Below are positions 3,404 to 61,697 of a DNA stretch of 64,000 nucleotides, piece after piece. Positions within the stretch are counted from its first letter, which is position 1, and each line of letters opens with the position of its first letter. The stretch comes from Rhodocyclaceae bacterium (GTDB taxonomy: Bacteria; Pseudomonadota; Gammaproteobacteria; Burkholderiales; Rhodocyclaceae): NCBI GenBank assembly GCA_016791145.1, contig JAEUNJ010000069.1, positions 1-64,000 on the forward strand. The letters run 5' to 3'. The notes beneath the pieces were generated by a model, which was given only the letters and a program-made list of their open reading frames with translations, did not search any database and had not been told where the DNA came from. The position numbers were made by a program, and so were the translations under genes.

Positions 3404-4708
3404 CTACTTCGGACGGCGATCCACCACGCGCTTCGCCTTGCCCACGATGGTCCGTTCCACGCCGCCGGAATGGAGGACATTCACGTGGGCGGAGACGCCC
3501 ACGTAGGACTTGATCGCGTGGTGCAGCTCGGCCCCGACGCGGCTCTGCTCGGCGGGGCTGGCGTTCAGGTGGGCGGGCCGGAACTCCACGTTCACCGCGA
3601 TGCTGTCGAGGGGCCCGTCCTTGTCCACGACGATCTGGTAGATGGAGTCCAGCTCCGGCTGGCGCATGACCAGTTCCTCGATCTGCGAGGGGAAGACGTT
3701 CACGCCGCGGATGATCAGCATGTCGTCGGAACGCCCCGTGATCTTCGCCATGCGGCGCATGGAGCGGGCGGTGCCCGGCAGCAGCCGCGTCAGGTCCCGG
3801 GTCCGGTAGCGGATCACCGGCATGGCCTCCTTGGAAAGGGAGGTGAAGACCAGTTCGCCCAGCTCCCCGTCGGGCAGCAGCTCGCCGGTGTCCGGGTCGA
3901 TGATCTCCGGATAGAAGTGGTCCTCCCAGACGGTGAGCCCGTCCTTGGTCTCGACGCATTCCTGGGCGACGCCGGGCCCCATCACCTCCGACAGGCCATA
4001 GATGTCAATGGCATCACAGTGCCAGCGCTTCTCGATGGCGCTCCGGATCTCGTTGGTCCAGGGTTCCGCGCCGTGGATGCCCAGGCGCACGCTGCTCTGC
4101 CGGGGGTCGAAGCCCTGCCGCTCCATTTCCTCGGCGATGACCAGCATGTAGGAGGGCGTCACCATGACCACGGTCGGCTTGAAGTCGTTGATGAGCTGCA
4201 CCTGCTTTTCCGTCTGGCCGCCGCCCATGGGGATCACCGCGCAGCCGAGCCGCTCGGCCCCGTAGTGGGCGCCGAGGCCGCCGGTGAAGAGCCCGTAGCC
4301 GTAGGAGACCATCAGGATGTCGTCGGGCCCGCCGCCGGCGGCATTGATCGAGCGGGCCATGATCGTCGCCCAGGTGTCCACGTCCTTCTGCGTGTAGCCC
4401 ACCACCGTCGGCTTGCCCGTGGTCCCGGAGGACGCATGCACGCGGACGATCTGCCGCATCGGCGTGGCGAAGAGCCCGTAGGGGTAGTTGTCCCGCAGGT
4501 CGGCCTTGGTGGTGAAGGGGAATCTGGCCAGGTCCTTCAGGTCCTGGAGGTCGGAGGGATGGACGCCGCGGTCGTCGAACTTCTTCCTGTAGTGGGGCAC
4601 GTTGTCGTAGGCGTGCTGCAGGGACCACCTCAGACGCTGCAACTGAAGCGCCGAAATCTCGTCCCGGCTCGCCACCTCGATGGGCTCGAATGCCCGCTTT
4701 TCTGCCAT
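3404..4708 (-). CDS. padJ: Phenylacetate-CoA ligase
   Basis: A 434-residue AMP-forming acyl-CoA synthetase that activates phenylacetate with ATP and CoA to phenylacetyl-CoA, the first step of the pathway. Visible motifs are the phosphate-binding loop ASSGTTGKPTVVGYT (about 92-106), YGLSEVMGPGVAQEC, the YRTRDL adenylation motif and the IRGVNVFPSQIEE hinge. Length and motifs match the PaaK/PadJ group. The ribosome-binding site GGAGGAGCACC supports the ATG at 4708. The gene follows padI by 57 bp, as in pad clusters of Aromatoleum/Azoarcus, which favours the anaerobic padJ assignment over an aerobic paaK. Confidence 0.93.
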   Translation of the reverse strand: MAEKRAFEPIEVASRDEISALQLQRLRWSLQHAYDNVPHYRKKFDDRGVHPSDLQDLKDLARFPFTTKADLRDNYPYGLFATPMRQIVRVHASSGTTGKPTVVGYTQKDVDTWATIMARSINAAGGGPDDILMVSYGYGLFTGGLGAHYGAERLGCAVIPMGGGQTEKQVQLINDFKPTVVMVTPSYMLVIAEEMERQGFDPRQSSVRLGIHGAEPWTNEIRSAIEKRWHCDAIDIYGLSEVMGPGVAQECVETKDGLTVWEDHFYPEIIDPDTGELLPDGELGELVFTSLSKEAMPVIRYRTRDLTRLLPGTARSMRRMAKITGRSDDMLIIRGVNVFPSQIEELVMRQPELDSIYQIVVDKDGPLDSIAVNVEFRPAHLNASPAEQSRVGAELHHAIKSYVGVSAHVNVLHSGGVERTIVGKAKRVVDRRPK

Positions 4709-9046: not shown

Positions 9047-9403
9047 GTCAGCCTCGCCCGGGCGCAACGAAGGCGTCATGCGCAACAGGCCGCGCTTTTC
9101 CGGATGGCTTGCGGGCACCGTGGGCGACAGGGGGCCGGCGCCACTCATGTCCGCCGGTCCGGGCAGCGCCCGGCCCTCCTCCTTTACTTCGCCGCGCCGG
9201 CCCCCTGCCACCCCTGGCGGTAGTCCCCCGTGTGGCCCGACGCGCGGATGCCTGCGGCGCTTCAGCAATGGGATGGTGGGGTGCTCCGCGCAGCGAAGTA
9301 AAGGCGGAGGCGGCAGCCGAAGGATGCCGCCGGGGGACATGAGCGGAGCGGAGCGCCCCACCGTCCCGTTCGCACCGTGCTCCCGACGACAATGCGGTCT
9401 TCA
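9047..9403. repeat. Gap between padF and padG with nested inverted repeats
   Basis: This 357-bp gap holds no credible gene. An almost perfect hairpin spans 9267-9365, with arms GGATGGTGGGGTGCTCCGC and GCGGAGCGCCCCACCGTCC. An outer inverted pair lies at about 9175-9198 (TCCTTTACTTCGCCGCGC) and 9289-9311 (GCGCAGCGAAGTAAAGGCGG), with further matching CTCATGTCC and GGACATGAG blocks at 9147 and 9337. The arrangement looks like a small palindromic element inserted in the operon. Confidence 0.65.
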
Positions 9404-9697
9404 TCACGCGCCCTCCGGCACCATGGAGATCGCCCGCTGCGGGCACTCCTGGGCGCATATGCCGCAGCCCTTGCAGGTGGCGTAATTGACGTCGAACCAG
9501 GCGGCCCGCTCGACGATGCACTGCACCGGGCAATAGAGCCAGCAGACGGCGCACTTGACGCACTTGTCGCGGGCCACCACCGGCCGCATGCTGCGCCAGT
9601 CGCCGGGCAGCATGGGGCTGGGCCTGACGGCGATGGGGGCCAGGTCGTCGGGGATGCGGCTGGCGTCGAAAAAGGGGACGGCGCGGGTAACGGTCAT
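9404..9697 (-). CDS. padF: Phenylglyoxylate dehydrogenase, delta (ferredoxin) subunit
   Basis: A 97-residue 2[4Fe-4S] ferredoxin with two clusters, CVKCAVCWLYCP and CKGCGICAQECP. It matches the delta subunit of 2-oxoacid:acceptor oxidoreductases and would carry electrons from the TPP centre towards padI and padH. The start MTVTRAVPFF at 9697 follows the ribosome-binding site GGCGGAGGCAGC. That same site sequence is duplicated at the end of padE, on the other side of a 194-bp inserted segment. Confidence 0.92.
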   Translation of the reverse strand: MTVTRAVPFFDASRIPDDLAPIAVRPSPMLPGDWRSMRPVVARDKCVKCAVCWLYCPVQCIVERAAWFDVNYATCKGCGICAQECPQRAISMVPEGA

Positions 9698-9902
9698 GCT
9701 GCCTCCGCCGGGCCGCCCCAAGGAGGCAGCCGGTCATTGAAGTTGAGCGGGCCGCGCCCGCGAACTACCGTCACCCCCCTTCCCCGGGAAGGGGGGCCGG
9801 GGGGGAAGGCTCCCAATTCCCCCGAAGGGGAGCGCTGGCGCTCCCCCCTTCCCCGGGAAGGGGGGCCGGGGGGGAAGGGAGCCGTATTCATGCTGCCTCC
9901 GC
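9694..9902. mobile_element. 194-bp repeat insertion flanked by a 15-bp direct duplication
   Basis: TCATGCTGCCTCCGC occurs at 9694-9708 and again at 9888-9902. On the coding strand this is the padF ribosome-binding site plus start codon at one end and the padE stop region at the other. Between them are two direct copies of a self-complementary unit (CCCCTTCCCCGGGAAGGGGG, within 9774-9809 and 9843-9879). The simplest reading is that an insertion duplicated an original ATGA overlap of padE and padF. No transposase is present. Replication slippage could also produce the pattern. Confidence 0.6.
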
Positions 9903-10460
9903 GTGGGTAAGTTCATGCACCGTTGTGGCCTCGAAGCCCCGCCGCACCGCCTCCAGGTTCTGGGCGAGGCCGGCGTCGCGGAATTCGGCACCGCGCACCG
10001 CCTCTTCGAGCGCCTCGAGCGAGACCAGGCCCGTGGTGCGGGCGAAGGCGCCCAGCATCAGGGTGTTGGTGATCGGGCGGCGGAAGATGCCCATGGCCAG
10101 GGCCACGGCATCGCACAGGCCGACCCGGCCCACGGTGTCCGGCATCTGCAGATCGTCGAGGCCGCGGGCGGTGGTCTGCACCAGCGTGCCGCCGGGCTGC
10201 AGGCCCTCGAAGACGTTGACCGCCCGGCCCACGGTGGGGTCGATGCAGAGCACGCAATGGGGTTCGTAGATGTTGGTCATGCGCCGGATGGGCTTGTCGT
10301 CCACCCGCAGGAAGGCGGCCACCGGCGCCCCCCGGCGCTCGAAGCCGAAGGAGGGCACGGCCACCGCGTGCCGGCCTTCGGCCACCAAGGCCTTGGCCAG
10401 CATGGCGGCGGCGAGGACGGTGCCCTGGCCCCCCCGGCCGTGCATGCGGATCTCGATCAT
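9888..10460 (-). CDS. padE: Phenylglyoxylate dehydrogenase, gamma subunit
   Basis: A 190-residue gamma subunit of the 2-oxoacid:acceptor oxidoreductase family, recognised by the N-terminal GRGGQGTVLAAAMLAKAL motif and the SFGFERRGAPVAAFLRV segment. It contacts CoA and the other subunits in the family. The stop TGA sits inside the 15-bp sequence that recurs at the start of padF. It begins 18 bp downstream of the padD stop. Confidence 0.92.
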   Translation of the reverse strand: MIEIRMHGRGGQGTVLAAAMLAKALVAEGRHAVAVPSFGFERRGAPVAAFLRVDDKPIRRMTNIYEPHCVLCIDPTVGRAVNVFEGLQPGGTLVQTTARGLDDLQMPDTVGRVGLCDAVALAMGIFRRPITNTLMLGAFARTTGLVSLEALEEAVRGAEFRDAGLAQNLEAVRRGFEATTVHELTHAEAA

Positions 10461-53900: not shown

Positions 53901-56900
53901 CTCGAGACGCCGACCATCTCCTTCGAAGACGTGACCATCGACCTGGGGTCCTTCATCTCGGACTTCATCGGCCCCATCCTCGAGAAGATCCAGGTCTTCA
54001 CCGAGCCCCTGCAGCCCATCATCGACCTGCTGCGCACCGACATCCCCATCATCTCGGACCTAGACCCCCTGAAGAACGCCCTGAACAAGGACGGCAAGGA
54101 CGGGGTCTCCATGCTCGACTTCGCCGGCACCATCCTCGGCGAGACCAAGTACCGGTCCGTCTACACCGCCGTCACGGTGCTGATCGAGCTGATCGACCTG
54201 ATCAACCACATCCCGACCGGCGACACCGTGCTGATCAATTTCGGCGACTTCACCGTGGCCGGCGGCAGCACCGGCGTCGATGCCACCAAGGCCGACGCCC
54301 TCAAGTCGGCCGACCGGAACGCCGTCTCGGGTGCCAACGACACCTCGGCCTTCGACAACCAGAACGCGTCGGACACCAACTCCGACCGCAAGGGCTTCAT
54401 GCAGAAGCTCAAGGGCTCGGGGGTCGGCAAGGGTTTCGAGATCCCGCTCCTGACCAGCCCGTCCGCCGTCCTCGGCCTGCTGATGGGGCAGAACGTGGAC
54501 CTCTTCAAGTTCAACCTGCCGGACCTGGAGTTCGACTTCAGCTTCCGCAAGTCCACCCCCATCGTATTCCCGCTCAATGCCATCTTCTTCGGCGGCATCA
54601 GCGCCACCGTGCGCCTGGGTTTCGGCTTCGATACCTACGGCATCCAGCAATTCCTGACCAGCAGCGATCCGGCCGACATCTTCGACGGTTTCTACATCGA
54701 CGACCACGGCGACGAGGGAACCGGGGGCGATGCCGCCGAGGTCGAGTTGCACGCGACGATCGGCGCCGGCGCCTCGGTCGGCGTGGCCGGGCTCGTGGAG
54801 GCGGGCGTGGAGGCCGGCATCACGGGGACCGTGGAGTTCGACCTCAACGACGTCGTCATGGGGGCGGCGGGCAGCGAGGTGGGCGACGGCAAGGTCCGCA
54901 TCGAGGATTTCATCGAACTGACGCGCGCCGGACCGCTTTGCTTCCTGGATGTGTCCGGCTCCATCGACTGGTTCCTCAACGCCTTCGTCTGGGTGGGCCT
55001 CGACCTCGGCTTCTTCGGCCGCATCACCCTCTGGGACGAGAACTTCAGCCTGGGCAGCGGCAACATCGCGGAATTCGAGCACCACTGCCCCGTCGTCCTG
55101 CGGCCGAACCTGGCCCACATGAGCGGCGGCGACCTGGTGCTGCACATGGGCACCGACGCCGACCAGCGGGTCACCGAGACCGACGGAGACGCCGCGGAGA
55201 CCTACCTGGTCGAATACCTGGCCGCCGGCGCCTCGCTGGCCGACTACAACATCGCCGGCAGCCCGGCCACGGCGGCGACCAACGTGCTGGTGGTCCAGTA
55301 CAACGGCTACGCGGAGGTCTACAACGCGGCATCCGTCGGCCGGATCGTCGTGAACGACGCGGCGGGCGGGGCGGACAGCCTGACCGTCGGGGCGGGCGTC
55401 GCCGCCAACGTGGAATTCCACGGCGGAGAGGGCGACGACCGGGTCACCAGCCAGTCCTCGGGCACCCACACCCTGTACGGAGACGCCGGCAAGGACCGGC
55501 TGGCGGTGACCAAGGCGGCCGGGCACGCGGCTGGCACCGCGCGCCTCTACGGCGGCGACGGCGACGACACCCTGACCACCTCGGACGGCAACGACAGCGT
55601 CTACGGCGGCGACGGCAACGACAAGATCAAGACCGGGACGGGCAACGACTACGTGGAGGGCGGCGACGAGAGCGTCGCCGTCTCCGGGGCCAAGGCCAAC
55701 GGCGACACCATCGACACGGGGGTGGGCAACGACACCGTCTACGGCGGCACCGGCAGCGATGCGATCAAGGCCGGCGACGGCGACGACCTGGTCTACGGCG
55801 GCGATGAGAGCGGCCTCCTGCCCAGCGGCAAGGCCCTGGGGGATTCCATCGATGCCGGCAAGGGCAACGACACCGTGCACGCCGGTGCCGGCAGCGATGC
55901 CCTCAAGGGCGGCGACGGCGACGACCAGCTCTGGGGCGGCAGCGGCGACGACAGCTTCACCGCCGGCCGGGGCATCGACCAGGTCCGCGGCGAGGCGGGC
56001 GGCGACACGATCTACTGGACCGTCGGCGACGGCGTGGACGGCGTCATCGACGGCGGCGCCGACGGGGACGGCATCATCGTCACCGGCGCGGACGTCGATA
56101 CGGACATCGAGTTGTCCAATTCATCCGGCAACGTGCTGCTCGCCTGGGGTGCCAACGGCCTGCTCACCCAGAACACCGAGAAATTCACGCTGAACGCCGG
56201 CCAGGGACTCGACCGCTTCACGATCCGCGACCTGGCGGGCACCGCCGCGAAGGAGATCTCCATCAGCCTGGGCGGCGAGATCGTCGAATCCACGATCTAC
56301 GATTACGATGGGGACGGCACCTACGACGACGATCCCCCGGCCATGCTGGACGGCGAGGGCGCGGTCATCCGGGACCGCTTCGGCGAGGCGCTGCTGAAGG
56401 ACGTCTACGACGATGGCACGCCGGTGCCCTACAAGGTGGTCCGCGAGTTCGCGGACGACGGCAAGGCGGATTCCGTGGTCATCTACGGCGGCGCCGGCGA
56501 CGACGTGTTCTCGGCCAACACCGCCCGTGACGCCGACGGGCTCTACGTCCTCAACGTGAGCCGCCAGTCGCCGTCCATCCTGTATTCGGTGGACCAGGGG
56601 TCCGTGGCCGATCCCCTGGCCATCGACACCTTCACGCTGCACACCCTGGGCGGCAACGACAACGTGGATTTCAGCAACGTCGGCAAGGACCGGGATGCGG
56701 GCGAGATCCAATTGCTCGCCATGACCCTGGACGGCGCGGCGGGCAACGACCTGATCCTGGGCACCCAGTGGAACGACTCCCTGGACAGCGGCGCCGGGGA
56801 CGACCGGGTGACCGGCAACCGGGGCGTCGATGCCTTCTCCGATGCCTCGGGCAACGACCAGCTCATCGAGACCCGCGACGCGAACTTCGCGATCACCCGC

Positions 56901-59900
56901 GGCGTCCTCACCATCGGCGCCGAGACCGAATCGACCATCGCGCCCTTCGAGACCGTGATCCTCAACGGCGGCGCCGGCCACAACCGCTTCGACGTCTCCG
57001 ACTGGACCGGCACCCTGCGCATGGACGGGGCGGGCGAGGGGGACGTCTACAACATCCACTTCCGCGGCGCCGGCGATTCGGTGATCACCGAGAACGACTC
57101 CGGCGGCACCCTGGGCACCGCCGACGCGATCCACGTCTTCGGCACCTCGGGGCAGGACTTCTTCTTCCTGGATGCCAACAACGGCGATGCCAGCATCCTG
57201 ACCGACGGCTACGTGCAGGTGGCCCACGGCTTCATCGGCGACGACGGCTCCTACCACGCCTACGGCACCAGCGAGACCTTCAACTACACGCGCTCCGAAT
57301 CGATGGACATCCATGCCGGGGCCGGGGACGACTACTTCACCGTGGACGACGTGGCCCTGGGCCTGGACGTCTACGGCGACGAGGGCAGCGACAACTTCGT
57401 GATCGGGCGGGTCCTCGAGGAGGCCCTCGTGGGCGGGATACCCGTGGCCACCAAGATCTCCAACGGCATCAGCGTGGTCTCCCGCTTCTACGGAGACGAC
57501 GGCAGCGACGACACGCCGGTGGGCGGCTACGCCTATGGCGACGACTATTTCGAGGTGAACCACAACGTCGCCGAGATCTGGCTCTACGGGGACGCGGGCG
57601 ACGACACCTTCGTCATCAACGCCCACCTGACCGACGACGATCCGTCCGACGACCCGCTGCGCAACGTGCGCGGCGGCACCGGCAACAACACCATCTCCTA
57701 CGTGCAGAACGCGGCCGTGAACATCGACGGCGGCGCCGGCAACGACACGGTGATCGTCAACGGCACGGCCATCGGCGACACCTTCATCGTCACCACCATC
57801 GAACTGGAAGTCTCCCCCGGCGTCTTCGAACTGCGCCAGCAGGTGGTCGGCGCGGGCCTCCAGATCAAGATGACCGACGTGGAGCGGCTCGAGGTCAATG
57901 GCGCCGGCGGCAACGACCACATCTACGTCTTCGGCACGCTGGACGGGCTGGACGTGACCATCCGCGGCGGTTCGGGCGACGACACCATCGTGATTGGCGG
58001 CGCGGCCGTGACGGTGACGGTGGACCCGCCGGCCTACATCTACCAGCCGCCGACCCAGACCATCGATCCGGCGCCCTACATCGACCACTACGACACCTAC
58101 TCCTTCTCCTGGGGCGACTACTGGTACTGGACGTGGTCCTTCCCCTTCCTCCGCTACCAGCCCCTGGTCACCTACACCTGGTCCGTGCCGGTCTGGGTGG
58201 ATCCGGCGCCCTACACCGTCACCCCCGCCGCCTACGAGATCGATCCGGACCCGATCGACTTCACGGCGGGCCCGAAGTACACGCTGAACGAGTCCGGTCA
58301 TGCGGGCGGCACCGGCGCGGACGCCTTCAGGCCCGGCATCCGGGGCAAGCTCACCGTGGATGGCCAGCTGGACACCGACACCCTGGTCGTCCACAACGAG
58401 GACGGCGATCCGGCCGACACCGCCACCTTCGACACGACCACGGACGACAAGGGCCTCCACTACCACGTGGGCGGGCTCGGCATGGGCCCCGACGGACTGA
58501 CCTACACGCGCGTCGAACAGTTCGACCTGAACATGGGGGCGGGCGACGATCTCGTCACCGTGACGGCCATCGATCCGGTCACCCGCCTGACCCTGAACCT
58601 GGGCAACGGCGACGACGTGGTGGACCTGCGGGCCATGGAGGGCGACCTGACGATCAACGGTGGCGCGGGCGACGACACCGTCAATGCCGGCAGCCTGGCC
58701 CCCGCCGCTACCGGCGGCGACCTGGCCGCCATCGCGGGCGAACTGGCCTTCGCCGGCGGCACCGGGACCGACGTGCTGAACCTGGACGACACGGCCGCCA
58801 CCGTCGACCAGTCCGCCGTCATCACCGGGTCGACGCTCGCCGGCCTCGGGATGGCCGCCGGCATCGTCCACTACGAGGTGGATACCCTGAACCTGCGCCT
58901 GGGCAGCGGCGCCGACACGGTGGAGATCGAGGGCACCACCGCCGCCACCCACCTGTGGGGCAACGACGGCGACGACGCCTTCCTCGTCTCCTCCGACGGG
59001 GCGGCCCTGGCGGGCAGCCTGGACGGCGTGCTCGGCGACCTGGCCATCGACGCCGGCGGGGGCGGCAACACGCTGGCCGTCAGTGACCTGGGCGATGCCG
59101 ATGCCGACCCGTCCGCCGTCATCGCCGCCGATGCGATCACCGGTCTCGCCCCGGCGCGGATCGATTACACCGCCACCGGCGGCCGGTTCACCGGCGGCGT
59201 GAACGTCTGGGCAGGCCGCGGCGACGATGTCATCCGCGTCGCTTCCACGCGCCTGGACGACGTGACCACGATCCACGCCAACGGCGGCGACGACGCCGTG
59301 ACCGTGGACGACCTGGCCGGCGGCACCGACCGGCTGCTGGCCATCCACGGCGACGGGGGCGGGGACACCCTGGACGCCTCCGCCGTCACCAATGCCGAGG
59401 TGACCGTCCTCCTGTTCGGCGACAGCGGCGCCGAGACCTATGCCGGCGCCGACAAGCGCTTCCTGACCCTGACGGGCGCGGCGAGCGTCCTGCCGGGCGA
59501 CGGCGGGGCGGACGCGCTGCTCGCCGGAACGGGCAAGGCCATCCTGTTCGGCGGCGCCGCCGGCGACACCCTGTCCGGCAGCGTGGCCGACGACATCCTG
59601 ATCGGCGATGCCGGCGAGGTGGCCTTTGTCTCCGGCGTCGTGACGCGTTTCGCCAGCCTCGGCACGGCGGGCGGCGATGACGACATCGACGCGCTGGGCG
59701 GCGGCAATTTCGTCATCGGCGGCGCGGGAGCGGACAGCATCGCCGCCGGCGGCGGCGCCGACGTCGCCCTGGGCGACAACGGCGAGGTCACCTATACCGA
59801 CGCCGGCGTCATCACCCGCGCGCGCAGCCTCGATGCCGCGACCGGCGGCGGCGACGTCCTCGACCTGGGCGACGGCGCCAACATCGCGGTCGGCGGGTTC

Positions 59901-61697
59901 GGCGCCGATACCGTCGCCGGGGGCGGCGGCGCCGACACCCTGATCGGCGACAACGGCGAGATCGTCTATGCTCTGGGCATCGTCGCCAGCTTCGCCTCCA
60001 CCGACGGCGTCGCCGCCACCGGCGGCGCCGACGACATCGCCGCCGGCGAAGGCGACAACCTGGTCCTGGGCGGCGTCGGGGCCGATACGGTGGCCGCCGG
60101 CACCGGCGACGACCGGATCATCGGCGACAACGGCGAGATCCTCTATTCGGGCGCCGTCGTCGTCCGCTTCGCCTCCACCGACGCCGGCGCCGCCACCGGC
60201 GCCGGCGACACGATCGCCGCCGGCGATGGCGCCAACCTGGTCCTCGGCGGCCTCGGCGCGGACAGCGTGGCCGCCGGGAACGGCGACGACCTGGTCATCG
60301 GCGACAACGGCGAGGCGCGATGGACGGCGGCCGGGCTGATCTCCCGGGTGGTTTCGGAGGTGTCGTTCCTGGGCGGGGCGGACACGGTGGACGGCGGGGC
60401 CGGCGACAACATCCTGGTCGGCGGATTCGGCGGCGACCGGCTCGACGCCGGATCCGGGGACGACGTCATCCTGGGCGACAACGGAAGCCTGGACTACGAC
60501 GGCGGCCTGCTCTCGGCCGGGACCACGGACGGCGGCCCGGCGACCGGCGGCGACGACCGCATCACGGCCGGCGGCGGGCGCAACGTGGTCCTGGGCGGTG
60601 TCGGCCGCGACCGCATCGTCACCGGGGACGGCGAAGACCTGGTGCTCGGCGACAGCGGCGTGGCCGAGTTCTCCGGCGGCGTCCTGGCCCGGGCCGGGAA
60701 CGACGCGACCATCGACGGCGGCGACGACCAGGTGGACCTGGGCGGCGGCAACGACGTGGCCATCGGCGGCGACGGATCGGATGGCCTTTCCGGCCAGGCT
60801 GGCGACGACATCCTGATGGGCGACGGCGGGCACGTGAGCTACGTGGCCGGCGGACTCTCGGAAATCGAGGGGGATTCCGCGATCGGCGGCGACGACACCC
60901 TGATGGGGGGTGCCGGGGCGGACATCATGCTCGGCGGCAAGGGCGCCGACACCATGGACGGCGACCTGGCCGAGGACCTGATCATCGGCGACAACGCCCG
61001 CATCCGTTTCTCCGGCGGACTGGTGACCAGCATCGAACTGCTGGGCAGCATGGACCTGGTCCTCGAGCAGCTCTTCGCCCTCTATGAGACCCCGGCCGAC
61101 GCCGGCGTCGAGGCGACCCCCGGCGAAGCCGCCGCCGCGTTGGCGGCGGTCCTGGCCGGCGCCCCGGAGTCCGACACCGGGGATGGGGAGGCCGGCGTGC
61201 CGCGGCTGGTGGCGACGGGAAGCGGCCTGGAACTGATCCTGGGCGGCGCCCGGCCCCTGGCGTCGCTGCCCGCCGCCATGAGCAACGCCCTGATCGACCT
61301 GATCCTCGGCCATCCCGAGGCCGTGTCCTCGGGGGGCGCCACCGAGTCCTCGGATGCGCCGCCCGAGGCCCCGCCCGCCGACGGCGCGCCGGCCCCCGCG
61401 GGCAGCGCCGCGGCTGCCGCGGTCACCCCGGTCGCCCAGGCGCCCGCCGCCGACTGGGCCGGCGGCCTCTTCGATCCGGTCGTGCCCGCCCTGGCGGCCG
61501 GCGCGCCGGATGCCCTGTTCGTGACCGTCGCGCCGTCCGCCGACGGCCCCCGCCAGGGGGACGCGCAGCTCTGGCTTGCCGGCCTGCTCGGCGCCGCCGC
61601 GGGGAACGGCCGGACCCGGGTGTTCGATCCGGCCAGCGGCACCTGGCGGATCCCCGGCCCGCCGGCCCGGCAGGCGGCGCTGCGGCGCGCCGCCTGA
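50919..61697 (+). CDS. Giant LEPR-XLL/DUF4347/RTX-repeat protein (3592 residues)
   Basis: Probably an exported surface or matrix protein. A basic N terminus (1-40) precedes the LEPR-XLL motif FEALEPRLLLSAD (41-53), a suspected sorting signal. A DUF4347 domain (about 129-283) has His183 (LTHG) and Cys226 (LLYGC). RTX-like Gly/Asp repeats occur at about 508-561, 1500-1690 and in many later blocks. A non-RTX beta-rich region spans about 684-1404. A Tyr/Trp/Pro-rich patch sits at about 2368-2447. The C terminus has about nine long-period repeats (2890-3367), then an Ala/Pro-rich end. No N-terminal Sec signal is seen. The ribosome-binding site AAGGAG supports the start at 50919. Confidence 0.85.
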   Translation: MVVQIAQRTARRLTKGFRAALSAAPAPRAPALPPFRRRVIFEALEPRLLLSADLPVLPPQPDAQLPAQAQPVEAAALIHDLPAPLPVFDAMGDGMDAGVIDPGALAAGPAVAAPVAGSDPAGTGPVPEQLVIVDPRVAGALDLPGSVPGVRFLVLAAGEDGLRQITDALAGESDLAAIHVLTHGATGLLDIAGTLLDAASLAAREAEIAAWGKALAAGGDILLYGCDVAQGAQGLRFLERLAAATGADVAASTDATGAAARGGDWHLEASVGAVETAPLAFHLTDGVLADFVGTSGNDNFSGTGGADNFSFSIANLAATDTVAGGAGADALIVTSAGTITDAVWAKVTGVETLQLAAAGNTAELGATVDAAVATATGAALTATGGAGADTLAIGDGWAHAVTFDGAGGSDTLDFSGYSGDLAFTVKLDGSIVVKAGATLLATATHVENLIGGGGDNVFTFEDGAVLAGALTGGSGGANTLDHSANTTGITANLAAGTATGVGGAVSGIQNVTGGTGDDEIAGDGEANELAGGGGADTLAGGAGDDSLAGGSGDDTYLFAEGWGDDVVTETGGTDSGDFSAVTSGIAFDIGVGTLGADDGADVLSANGIENLTGGSGDDVFAFAKSGSAILAGDLAGGGSVDGDVLDYSSLADSLDLTGSGEIGDGAGGDRAPRVGGSATGIGKVQHPDTAIEALDVAFDNLENGFASLFGGLSLPLVGDIGSGIEDFLADLHARMVDPFATALLTDDLTLTTDAIIKTTLESGLTFELAGGEVSVTLPGLTALEVRMELHGTIWEKDVSIDFAGAAPGLGLTIDGDIHLAFTYDFTLGIGVDFTSGDFYLITAGFEDDPLTAEDESGPEEFRMTLEATLPEDFTATGVLGFLQLDIAEFTDDVKYFDDQHDDGQRSGITAEFTVDVSDPDDDGRLTLTEISAPGFSFLDHIVADFHAGIDVDLKGEVSVAGSAVIPRIITIFHYEQDLLDVHLAFGAGGVTMTGLETPTISFEDVTIDLGSFISDFIGPILEKIQVFTEPLQPIIDLLRTDIPIISDLDPLKNALNKDGKDGVSMLDFAGTILGETKYRSVYTAVTVLIELIDLINHIPTGDTVLINFGDFTVAGGSTGVDATKADALKSADRNAVSGANDTSAFDNQNASDTNSDRKGFMQKLKGSGVGKGFEIPLLTSPSAVLGLLMGQNVDLFKFNLPDLEFDFSFRKSTPIVFPLNAIFFGGISATVRLGFGFDTYGIQQFLTSSDPADIFDGFYIDDHGDEGTGGDAAEVELHATIGAGASVGVAGLVEAGVEAGITGTVEFDLNDVVMGAAGSEVGDGKVRIEDFIELTRAGPLCFLDVSGSIDWFLNAFVWVGLDLGFFGRITLWDENFSLGSGNIAEFEHHCPVVLRPNLAHMSGGDLVLHMGTDADQRVTETDGDAAETYLVEYLAAGASLADYNIAGSPATAATNVLVVQYNGYAEVYNAASVGRIVVNDAAGGADSLTVGAGVAANVEFHGGEGDDRVTSQSSGTHTLYGDAGKDRLAVTKAAGHAAGTARLYGGDGDDTLTTSDGNDSVYGGDGNDKIKTGTGNDYVEGGDESVAVSGAKANGDTIDTGVGNDTVYGGTGSDAIKAGDGDDLVYGGDESGLLPSGKALGDSIDAGKGNDTVHAGAGSDALKGGDGDDQLWGGSGDDSFTAGRGIDQVRGEAGGDTIYWTVGDGVDGVIDGGADGDGIIVTGADVDTDIELSNSSGNVLLAWGANGLLTQNTEKFTLNAGQGLDRFTIRDLAGTAAKEISISLGGEIVESTIYDYDGDGTYDDDPPAMLDGEGAVIRDRFGEALLKDVYDDGTPVPYKVVREFADDGKADSVVIYGGAGDDVFSANTARDADGLYVLNVSRQSPSILYSVDQGSVADPLAIDTFTLHTLGGNDNVDFSNVGKDRDAGEIQLLAMTLDGAAGNDLILGTQWNDSLDSGAGDDRVTGNRGVDAFSDASGNDQLIETRDANFAITRGVLTIGAETESTIAPFETVILNGGAGHNRFDVSDWTGTLRMDGAGEGDVYNIHFRGAGDSVITENDSGGTLGTADAIHVFGTSGQDFFFLDANNGDASILTDGYVQVAHGFIGDDGSYHAYGTSETFNYTRSESMDIHAGAGDDYFTVDDVALGLDVYGDEGSDNFVIGRVLEEALVGGIPVATKISNGISVVSRFYGDDGSDDTPVGGYAYGDDYFEVNHNVAEIWLYGDAGDDTFVINAHLTDDDPSDDPLRNVRGGTGNNTISYVQNAAVNIDGGAGNDTVIVNGTAIGDTFIVTTIELEVSPGVFELRQQVVGAGLQIKMTDVERLEVNGAGGNDHIYVFGTLDGLDVTIRGGSGDDTIVIGGAAVTVTVDPPAYIYQPPTQTIDPAPYIDHYDTYSFSWGDYWYWTWSFPFLRYQPLVTYTWSVPVWVDPAPYTVTPAAYEIDPDPIDFTAGPKYTLNESGHAGGTGADAFRPGIRGKLTVDGQLDTDTLVVHNEDGDPADTATFDTTTDDKGLHYHVGGLGMGPDGLTYTRVEQFDLNMGAGDDLVTVTAIDPVTRLTLNLGNGDDVVDLRAMEGDLTINGGAGDDTVNAGSLAPAATGGDLAAIAGELAFAGGTGTDVLNLDDTAATVDQSAVITGSTLAGLGMAAGIVHYEVDTLNLRLGSGADTVEIEGTTAATHLWGNDGDDAFLVSSDGAALAGSLDGVLGDLAIDAGGGGNTLAVSDLGDADADPSAVIAADAITGLAPARIDYTATGGRFTGGVNVWAGRGDDVIRVASTRLDDVTTIHANGGDDAVTVDDLAGGTDRLLAIHGDGGGDTLDASAVTNAEVTVLLFGDSGAETYAGADKRFLTLTGAASVLPGDGGADALLAGTGKAILFGGAAGDTLSGSVADDILIGDAGEVAFVSGVVTRFASLGTAGGDDDIDALGGGNFVIGGAGADSIAAGGGADVALGDNGEVTYTDAGVITRARSLDAATGGGDVLDLGDGANIAVGGFGADTVAGGGGADTLIGDNGEIVYALGIVASFASTDGVAATGGADDIAAGEGDNLVLGGVGADTVAAGTGDDRIIGDNGEILYSGAVVVRFASTDAGAATGAGDTIAAGDGANLVLGGLGADSVAAGNGDDLVIGDNGEARWTAAGLISRVVSEVSFLGGADTVDGGAGDNILVGGFGGDRLDAGSGDDVILGDNGSLDYDGGLLSAGTTDGGPATGGDDRITAGGGRNVVLGGVGRDRIVTGDGEDLVLGDSGVAEFSGGVLARAGNDATIDGGDDQVDLGGGNDVAIGGDGSDGLSGQAGDDILMGDGGHVSYVAGGLSEIEGDSAIGGDDTLMGGAGADIMLGGKGADTMDGDLAEDLIIGDNARIRFSGGLVTSIELLGSMDLVLEQLFALYETPADAGVEATPGEAAAALAAVLAGAPESDTGDGEAGVPRLVATGSGLELILGGARPLASLPAAMSNALIDLILGHPEAVSSGGATESSDAPPEAPPADGAPAPAGSAAAAAVTPVAQAPAADWAGGLFDPVVPALAAGAPDALFVTVAPSADGPRQGDAQLWLAGLLGAAAGNGRTRVFDPASGTWRIPGPPARQAALRRAA
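59590..61000 (+). repeat. Tandem long-period coding repeats in the giant protein
   Basis: About nine successive units of roughly 50-65 codons, each with GDNGE, a variable beta pair, a DDDI/DDTI-like segment, G-x-N-LVLGG-x-GAD-x-VAAG and GDD. Units drift in sequence, so the array is old or under diversifying change rather than freshly duplicated. Calcium binding by the Gly/Asp turns is the family expectation. Confidence 0.75.

Follow-up and report, generated by a model that had tools for sequence, protein, structure and literature searches.

A short dispersed repeat has gone into the 4-nt ATGA overlap between padE and padF in the DNA studied here and has duplicated about that overlap. The window is a 64,000-nt stretch (positions 1 to 64,000 of contig JAEUNJ010000069.1) of a Rhodocyclaceae genome that is a draft of 316 contigs. 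The inserted segment, made up of a module A and a shorter module B, is one copy of a hairpin-rich, non-autonomous dispersed repeat that we call R1, and a 65-codon micro-cistron runs across the entire insert. We consider it likely that R1 is a palindromic, non-autonomous element and that the insertions which survive are those that keep translation coupled.

The padE/padF Junction

On the minus strand of the window, padE (9888..10460) encodes the gamma subunit of phenylglyoxylate dehydrogenase and padF (9404..9697) the delta subunit. Both are NCBIfam equivalogs: padE, with its TGA stop at 9888-9890, scores 320 bits against NF045762 (cut-off 300) and padF, with its ATG start at 9695-9697, scores 155.4 bits against NF045763 (cut-off 150). 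The pad genes here belong to an anaerobic phenylacetate/phenylglyoxylate operon, with padG, padH, padI and phenylacetate-CoA ligase downstream. The sequence TCATGCTGCCTCCGC (read on the minus strand as GCGGAGGCAGCATGA) is identical at 9694-9708 and 9888-9902, a spacing of 194 bp; the copy at 9888 encloses the padE stop, the one at 9694 the padF start. Ten first-order Markov simulations of the window yielded no 15-mer direct repeat within 250 nt. Inside the segment a 36-bp sequence occurs twice, at 9774-9809 and 9843-9878, and BLAST finds matches to the insert region at about 50 genomic sites. This confirms two points of the initial annotation, namely that the same 15 bp stand at both ends of a 194-bp segment and that this segment is repeat-bearing.

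A Dispersed Hairpin-Rich Repeat

Module A (9698..9808, plus strand, antisense to the pad genes) contains three hairpins and matches the R1 covariance model with 95.5 bits. Hairpin 1 (9698..9730, inverted repeat I4) has its arms at 9698-9706 and 9722-9730 and the loop GCCGGGCCGCCCCAA; its helix covaries in 27 copies, and the outer arm, which adjoins the padF start, reads GGAGGCAGC. Module B (9809..9887, plus strand) is a shorter unit that repeats the third hairpin, with the second 36-bp copy lying 69 bp (3 x 23) after the first. B modules of a similar kind are present in C281, C73, C153, C200 and C280.

The unit of the repeat is about 110 bp long, and its three hairpins are common to 27 aligned copies. 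In this alignment pairing is kept in 94.5% of cells, and in 18 of the 27 pairs both partners have changed. Covariation scores 0.41, versus 0.11 for shuffles and no more than 0.10 with the partners slid; G-U intermediates are scarce in hairpin 1. With a covariance model derived from these 27 copies, 69 matches were obtained in the window's genome. Of the two origins named in the initial annotation, a non-autonomous element or slippage, this supports the insertion of a dispersed repeat. Within the family, 43 of 121 genomes contain R1, and these belong to 28 genera. Among 200 sampled genomes of the order six contained matches; four belong to the same family as the window, and one of the R1-positive samples is a copy-rich genome of another family. 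A search of Rfam 15 with the repeat returned only sub-threshold matches, none above the gathering score.

The 27 aligned copies have no terminal inverted repeats, since their ends differ: one end is a hairpin arm GC(N)CC... and the other reads GGGGGG(A/T)(A/G)GG. In the copies read here, no autonomous transposon with the same ends came to light. The repeat consensus carries no GTAG at a hairpin base. The Y1 transposase domain PF01797 was not found in G000, G006 and G088, of which G000 and G006 are copy-rich, and four Y1 loci that were fetched (L224-L227) gave no R1 match. A Y1/RAYT transposase was therefore rejected as the mobiliser.

The window holds other repeats as well. The gap between padF and padG (9113-9403) is occupied by a repeat unrelated to R1, with inverted arms CTTTACTTCGC and GCGAAGTAAAG, of which a 74% copy is found at G000:C291:1919-2154 and a partial copy at C81:10567-10665. 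Clusters of direct repeats lie at 59748-60299 (spacing about 174-177 bp) and 55546-55910 (54-219 bp), both outside R1 by position.

The Ancestral Overlap and Empty Sites

Relatives of padE were sought in public genomes and the padE/padF junction was read at each locus. In 59 of 61 loci with a recognisable padF the two genes overlap as RTGA (56 ATGA, 3 GTGA), and most uninterrupted pad relatives have a GGAGG-like sequence upstream of this overlap. The window retains the native ATGA at 9888..9891 (minus strand), where the padE stop now overlaps the start of the micro-cistron, and has a new one at 9694..9697 (minus strand), where the micro-cistron stop overlaps the padF start. That the junction was an ATGA overlap before the insertion, as had been supposed from the single sequence, is well supported by this comparison with pad clusters that lack the segment.

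Other pad loci carry R1 too. L126 has an independent copy in the opposite orientation at padE/padF, with ATGAG on both sides; in Candidatus Desulfobacillus denitrificans (L077) a copy stands directly past padF, and in G006 (L192) copies flank the padE-padF pair on both sides. In L087, a Rhodocyclaceae MAG, a different, unrelated insert splits padE and padF at about 3571-3700, and an R1 match lies at 3974-4085.

The flanks of ten G010 loci were joined and searched in two same-genus genomes. In G088 most of the ten matched continuously at 83-91% identity, so these are true empty sites. In the first pair the empty site reads GAGCAATGAGCAAG and the filled site GAGCAATGAG (element) GAATGAGCAAG; in the second, AAGAAATGAACGAAC stands against AAGAAATGA (element) CAATGAACGAAC, and in the third, TACGAATGAGCCGCC against TACGAATGAGC (element) CCAATGAGCCGCC. 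What is duplicated in these pairs is the overlap itself, about 4 bp and at most 7 bp. The initial annotation had held that the duplication allowed the insertion to spare both genes; this stands insofar as stop and start are duplicated, but the duplication comprises about ATGA only and not 15 bp. At two G136 junctions that are filled in G010 and empty in G088 (L201 and L203) unrelated inverted repeats are found (CGCAAAGACGCAAAG...CTTTGCGTCCTTTGCG, for example), and such junctions thus accept different inserts.

Slippage had been named as an alternative origin. Local slippage or tandem duplication in the absence of any mobile element would account for direct repeats at the ends and for the internal tandem module, but the same sequence turns up across the genome and in 28 genera of the family, and same-genus empty sites occur at unrelated loci. 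We regard this origin as very improbable, and the dispersed copies refute it as the main cause. Slippage may lie behind the module A/B structure and the variation in tandem copy number.

Origin of the 15-bp Match

The identity over 15 bp is best explained by a duplication of about ATGA together with look-alike Shine-Dalgarno-like sequences, one native and one borne by the element. On the padF side, the 11 bp past TCAT are part of the repeat itself. The arm comparison among copies places the Shine-Dalgarno-like GGAGG of padF (9702..9706, minus strand) within the element: 25 of 31 antisense copies have GGAGG in hairpin arm 1 beside the downstream start, versus 0 of 45 sense copies (p 9e-15), and the arm GGAGGC(A/G)GC is conserved beside start codons of unrelated genes. 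On the padE side the 15 bp are native coding sequence, with a GGAGG in the C-terminal codons of padE upstream of the old ATGA (9896..9900, minus strand); the closest uninterrupted relatives (L076, L077, L080) read GGGAGGC(C/G)GCATGA at the padE end. That the ribosome-binding site was copied, as the initial annotation held, is thus not supported, since its padF-side version is an element hairpin arm and its padE-side version native padE sequence.

It is improbable that a target-site duplication of 15 bp took in the ribosome-binding site. Such a duplication would explain the exact identity at padE/padF, and two further loci look alike, with 15 identical bp at both ends in C146 (L013) and 14 of 15 in G010:2353607 (L174). 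Yet within loci the 11 nt that precede the two starts are not significantly more similar (5.38) than between permuted loci (4.89; p 0.085), the per-position comparison across loci limits sharing to the NTGA core, with about ATGA being locus-specific, the arm is conserved at unrelated genes, and the filled/empty pairs show 4-7 bp at most. As a general rule such a duplication is rejected by the permutation and per-position tests, and a longer duplication at padE/padF alone is possible. A second candidate was that hairpin arm 1 had been copied from the target site, as the arms covary and resemble the padE tail; the same permutation result (p 0.085) leaves it unsupported.

A Micro-Cistron across the Insertions

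Read from 9891, the ATG within the old ATGA, the window sequence stays open for 65 codons across the whole insert until the TGA at 9694; this micro-cistron (9694..9891, minus strand) overlaps padE and padF by 4 nt each. This frame, which is absent from the initial annotation, has no NCBIfam match.

For classification by the codon-position GC of their flanks, 111 repeat blocks were taken from the window's genome and six further genomes; gene frames come from this rule and not from a full gene finder, and for the window copy, where the codon signal is weak, the frame was assigned by hand. Neighbouring genes are co-directional around 76 of the 83 classifiable blocks. A left start could be defined in 72 co-directional blocks, and in 61 it overlaps the upstream stop as NTGA. 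The open frame ends in an NTGA over the downstream start, in the right frame, at 52 of the 72 junctions versus 12 of 144 control frames (the two other frames of the same junctions). These 52 junctions are spread over several genera, and each insertion turns one overlap into two.

The old start stands in phase 2 to the downstream frame in 51 of 61 cases, in phase 0, the phase of in-frame fusion, in 5 and in phase 1 in 5; the excess of phase 2 has p 8e-16 against one third, a value to be read with the shared ancestry of the copies in mind, by which the loci are not fully independent and the parental length could give part of the bias. The pattern holds for copies in either orientation. Start-to-start distances are mostly 110, 113, 116, 119, 122 or 125 nt, longer ones being tandem or composite. 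Tandem unit spacings, taken from match coordinates, are mostly multiples of 3 and the exceptions are 2 mod 3. At L164, one of these exceptions, an ATGA stands between the units, giving two micro-cistrons in series, which would account for the 2 mod 3 spacings. Two sense subfamilies (MSAPRGRPEGR... and MSAVRRAVPRT...) use different frames of the repeat and have the same end at the new ATGA.

A few of the 61 carry an early stop, and an open frame of 40 codons is by itself unsurprising as both strands are GC-rich. Copies differ from one another about as often at codon position 1 as at positions 2 and 3, which implies that frame and length are kept and not the peptide. A conserved functional peptide was rejected, given the lack of a codon-position signal and of a family match.

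Some copies are read in other ways. At L209 / L243 (G136:C10:20006-20111) the downstream gene is extended at its N-terminus by an in-frame reading of the element (MSRRPPGRPKDGAVNHMEPRSGE...). At the near-identical L161 and L163 (G000:C157:4477 and C202:44783) the upstream gene extends into the element, where a TAG terminates it, which suggests that the C-terminus of the gene was replaced by the repeat.

Proposed Translational Coupling across the Insert

Overlapping gene pairs in prokaryotes, on average about 15% of gene pairs, are coupled by termination-reinitiation (PMC6728339). Overlaps are enriched among subunits of complexes, and in E. coli and Haloferax hardly any coupling is left when genes are separated by a gap near 20 nt (PMC10666635). 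An untranslated spacer of 194 nt would therefore be expected to break padE-padF coupling, and inserts of 110-200 nt should be costly unless they are translated across.

We infer from the arrangement of the frames that the micro-cistron is translated and that ribosomes reinitiate on padF. The repeat would insert into an ATGA overlap and duplicate about that overlap, so that both genes stay intact. A ribosome that finishes padE would then reinitiate at the old ATG on the 65-codon micro-cistron, translate it and reinitiate on padF at the new ATGA, presumably aided by a Shine-Dalgarno-like sequence at the end of the element. In sense copies this would be the G-rich tail, which lies about 7 nt ahead of the start, and in antisense copies the GGAGG in hairpin arm 1. 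Shuffled G-rich windows also bind the anti-Shine-Dalgarno sequence, and the sense-side signal is therefore weak evidence. The survival of insertions would be filtered by translational coupling. A cistron that bridges the gap in this way accounts for the phase, for the open frame on whichever strand is transcribed and for the Shine-Dalgarno-like sequences at both ends.

Alternatively, R1 could be an ordinary MITE- or REP-like repeat that lands anywhere and survives between genes, with the open frame and the phase as by-products of a fixed length and GC-rich DNA. Many known short repeats are indeed intergenic and structured and contain open frames (PMC2229807), the R1 copies have a common ancestry, and unrelated repeats occupy two of the junctions in G136. 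Against a mere effect of length, phase 2 prevails even though start-to-start distances vary, both subfamilies reach the new ATGA from different frames, and tandem spacings keep to multiples of 3 or to 2 mod 3, with the additional ATGA at L164. We therefore consider this explanation unlikely and prefer survival through preserved coupling.

A stronger version of the coupling explanation is that the element is specialised for stop/start overlaps. Its machinery would recognise RTGA at starts and both of its strands would be shaped as a coupling micro-cistron (open frame, length modulo 3, Shine-Dalgarno-like ends), so that it spreads through operons that remain coupled. In C100, C226 and G010:2181409 copies stand exactly at a start codon with the upstream stop 10-19 nt away, and such copies at starts that have no overlapping stop hint at insertion targeting. 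We put this version forward tentatively. If insertion itself prefers start codons, the element would be moved by an enzyme of such specificity.

Compact operons leave little space for insertions, and, judging from experiments, gaps of about 20 nt may already be enough to break the hand-over of ribosomes. By duplicating the overlap and inserting a bridge that is predicted to be translatable, R1 would provide a way round this restriction. The filled and empty orthologous junctions form a natural, repeated experiment on translational coupling. R1 may also explain odd N-terminal extensions in betaproteobacterial annotations, for which it is a likely source at, for instance, L209 / L243, and could give rise to short new ORFs between genes.

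Comparison with Known Repeats and Coupled Genes

We found no description of the overlap-bridging insertion behaviour in the open-access papers searched. MITE-like repeats with open frames include ERIC, YPAL, the 107-bp form of Correia/NEMIS and the Rickettsia palindromic elements (PMC2229807, PMC10969869). These resemble R1 in being 100-200 bp long and non-autonomous, with structured transcripts and open frames that are sometimes fused in frame. R1 shares with MITEs that it is short, non-autonomous and dispersed (units of about 110 bp, 69 matches) and that it has a target-site duplication of about ATGA (4-7 bp at most). Unlike them, it lacks consensus terminal inverted repeats, stands on stop/start overlaps, and has an ORF that usually ends in a new 4-nt overlap and is not fused.

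REP sequences, GTAG- and CGTC-tagged, are single hairpins of 20-40 bp, and the GTAG types are tied to Y1 transposases (PMC3733652). Like R1 they are dispersed palindromes between proteobacterial genes, sometimes in tandem and some of them coding (PMC3733652), whereas R1 is about 110 bp long with three hairpins, has no GTAG tag and occurs in copy-rich genomes (G000, G006) in which no Y1 transposase was found. BRE (75-91 bp) is likewise a GC-rich betaproteobacterial repeat that is mostly intergenic and often in tandem; in the section of PMC3110155 consulted it is assigned mainly to Bordetella, Polaromonas and Delftia, Azoarcus having a single copy, and no insertion at stop/start overlaps is described there. 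BRE of Bordetella may be related to R1.

R1 junctions share with coupled overlapping gene pairs the 4-nt stop/start overlap and a Shine-Dalgarno-like sequence in the upstream frame (PMC6728339, PMC10666635), and the 4-nt overlap lies in the correct frames in 52 of the 72 insertions and in the window. The difference is that the middle cistron is a mobile repeat and not a gene. We file R1 as a variant of the dispersed palindromic repeats.
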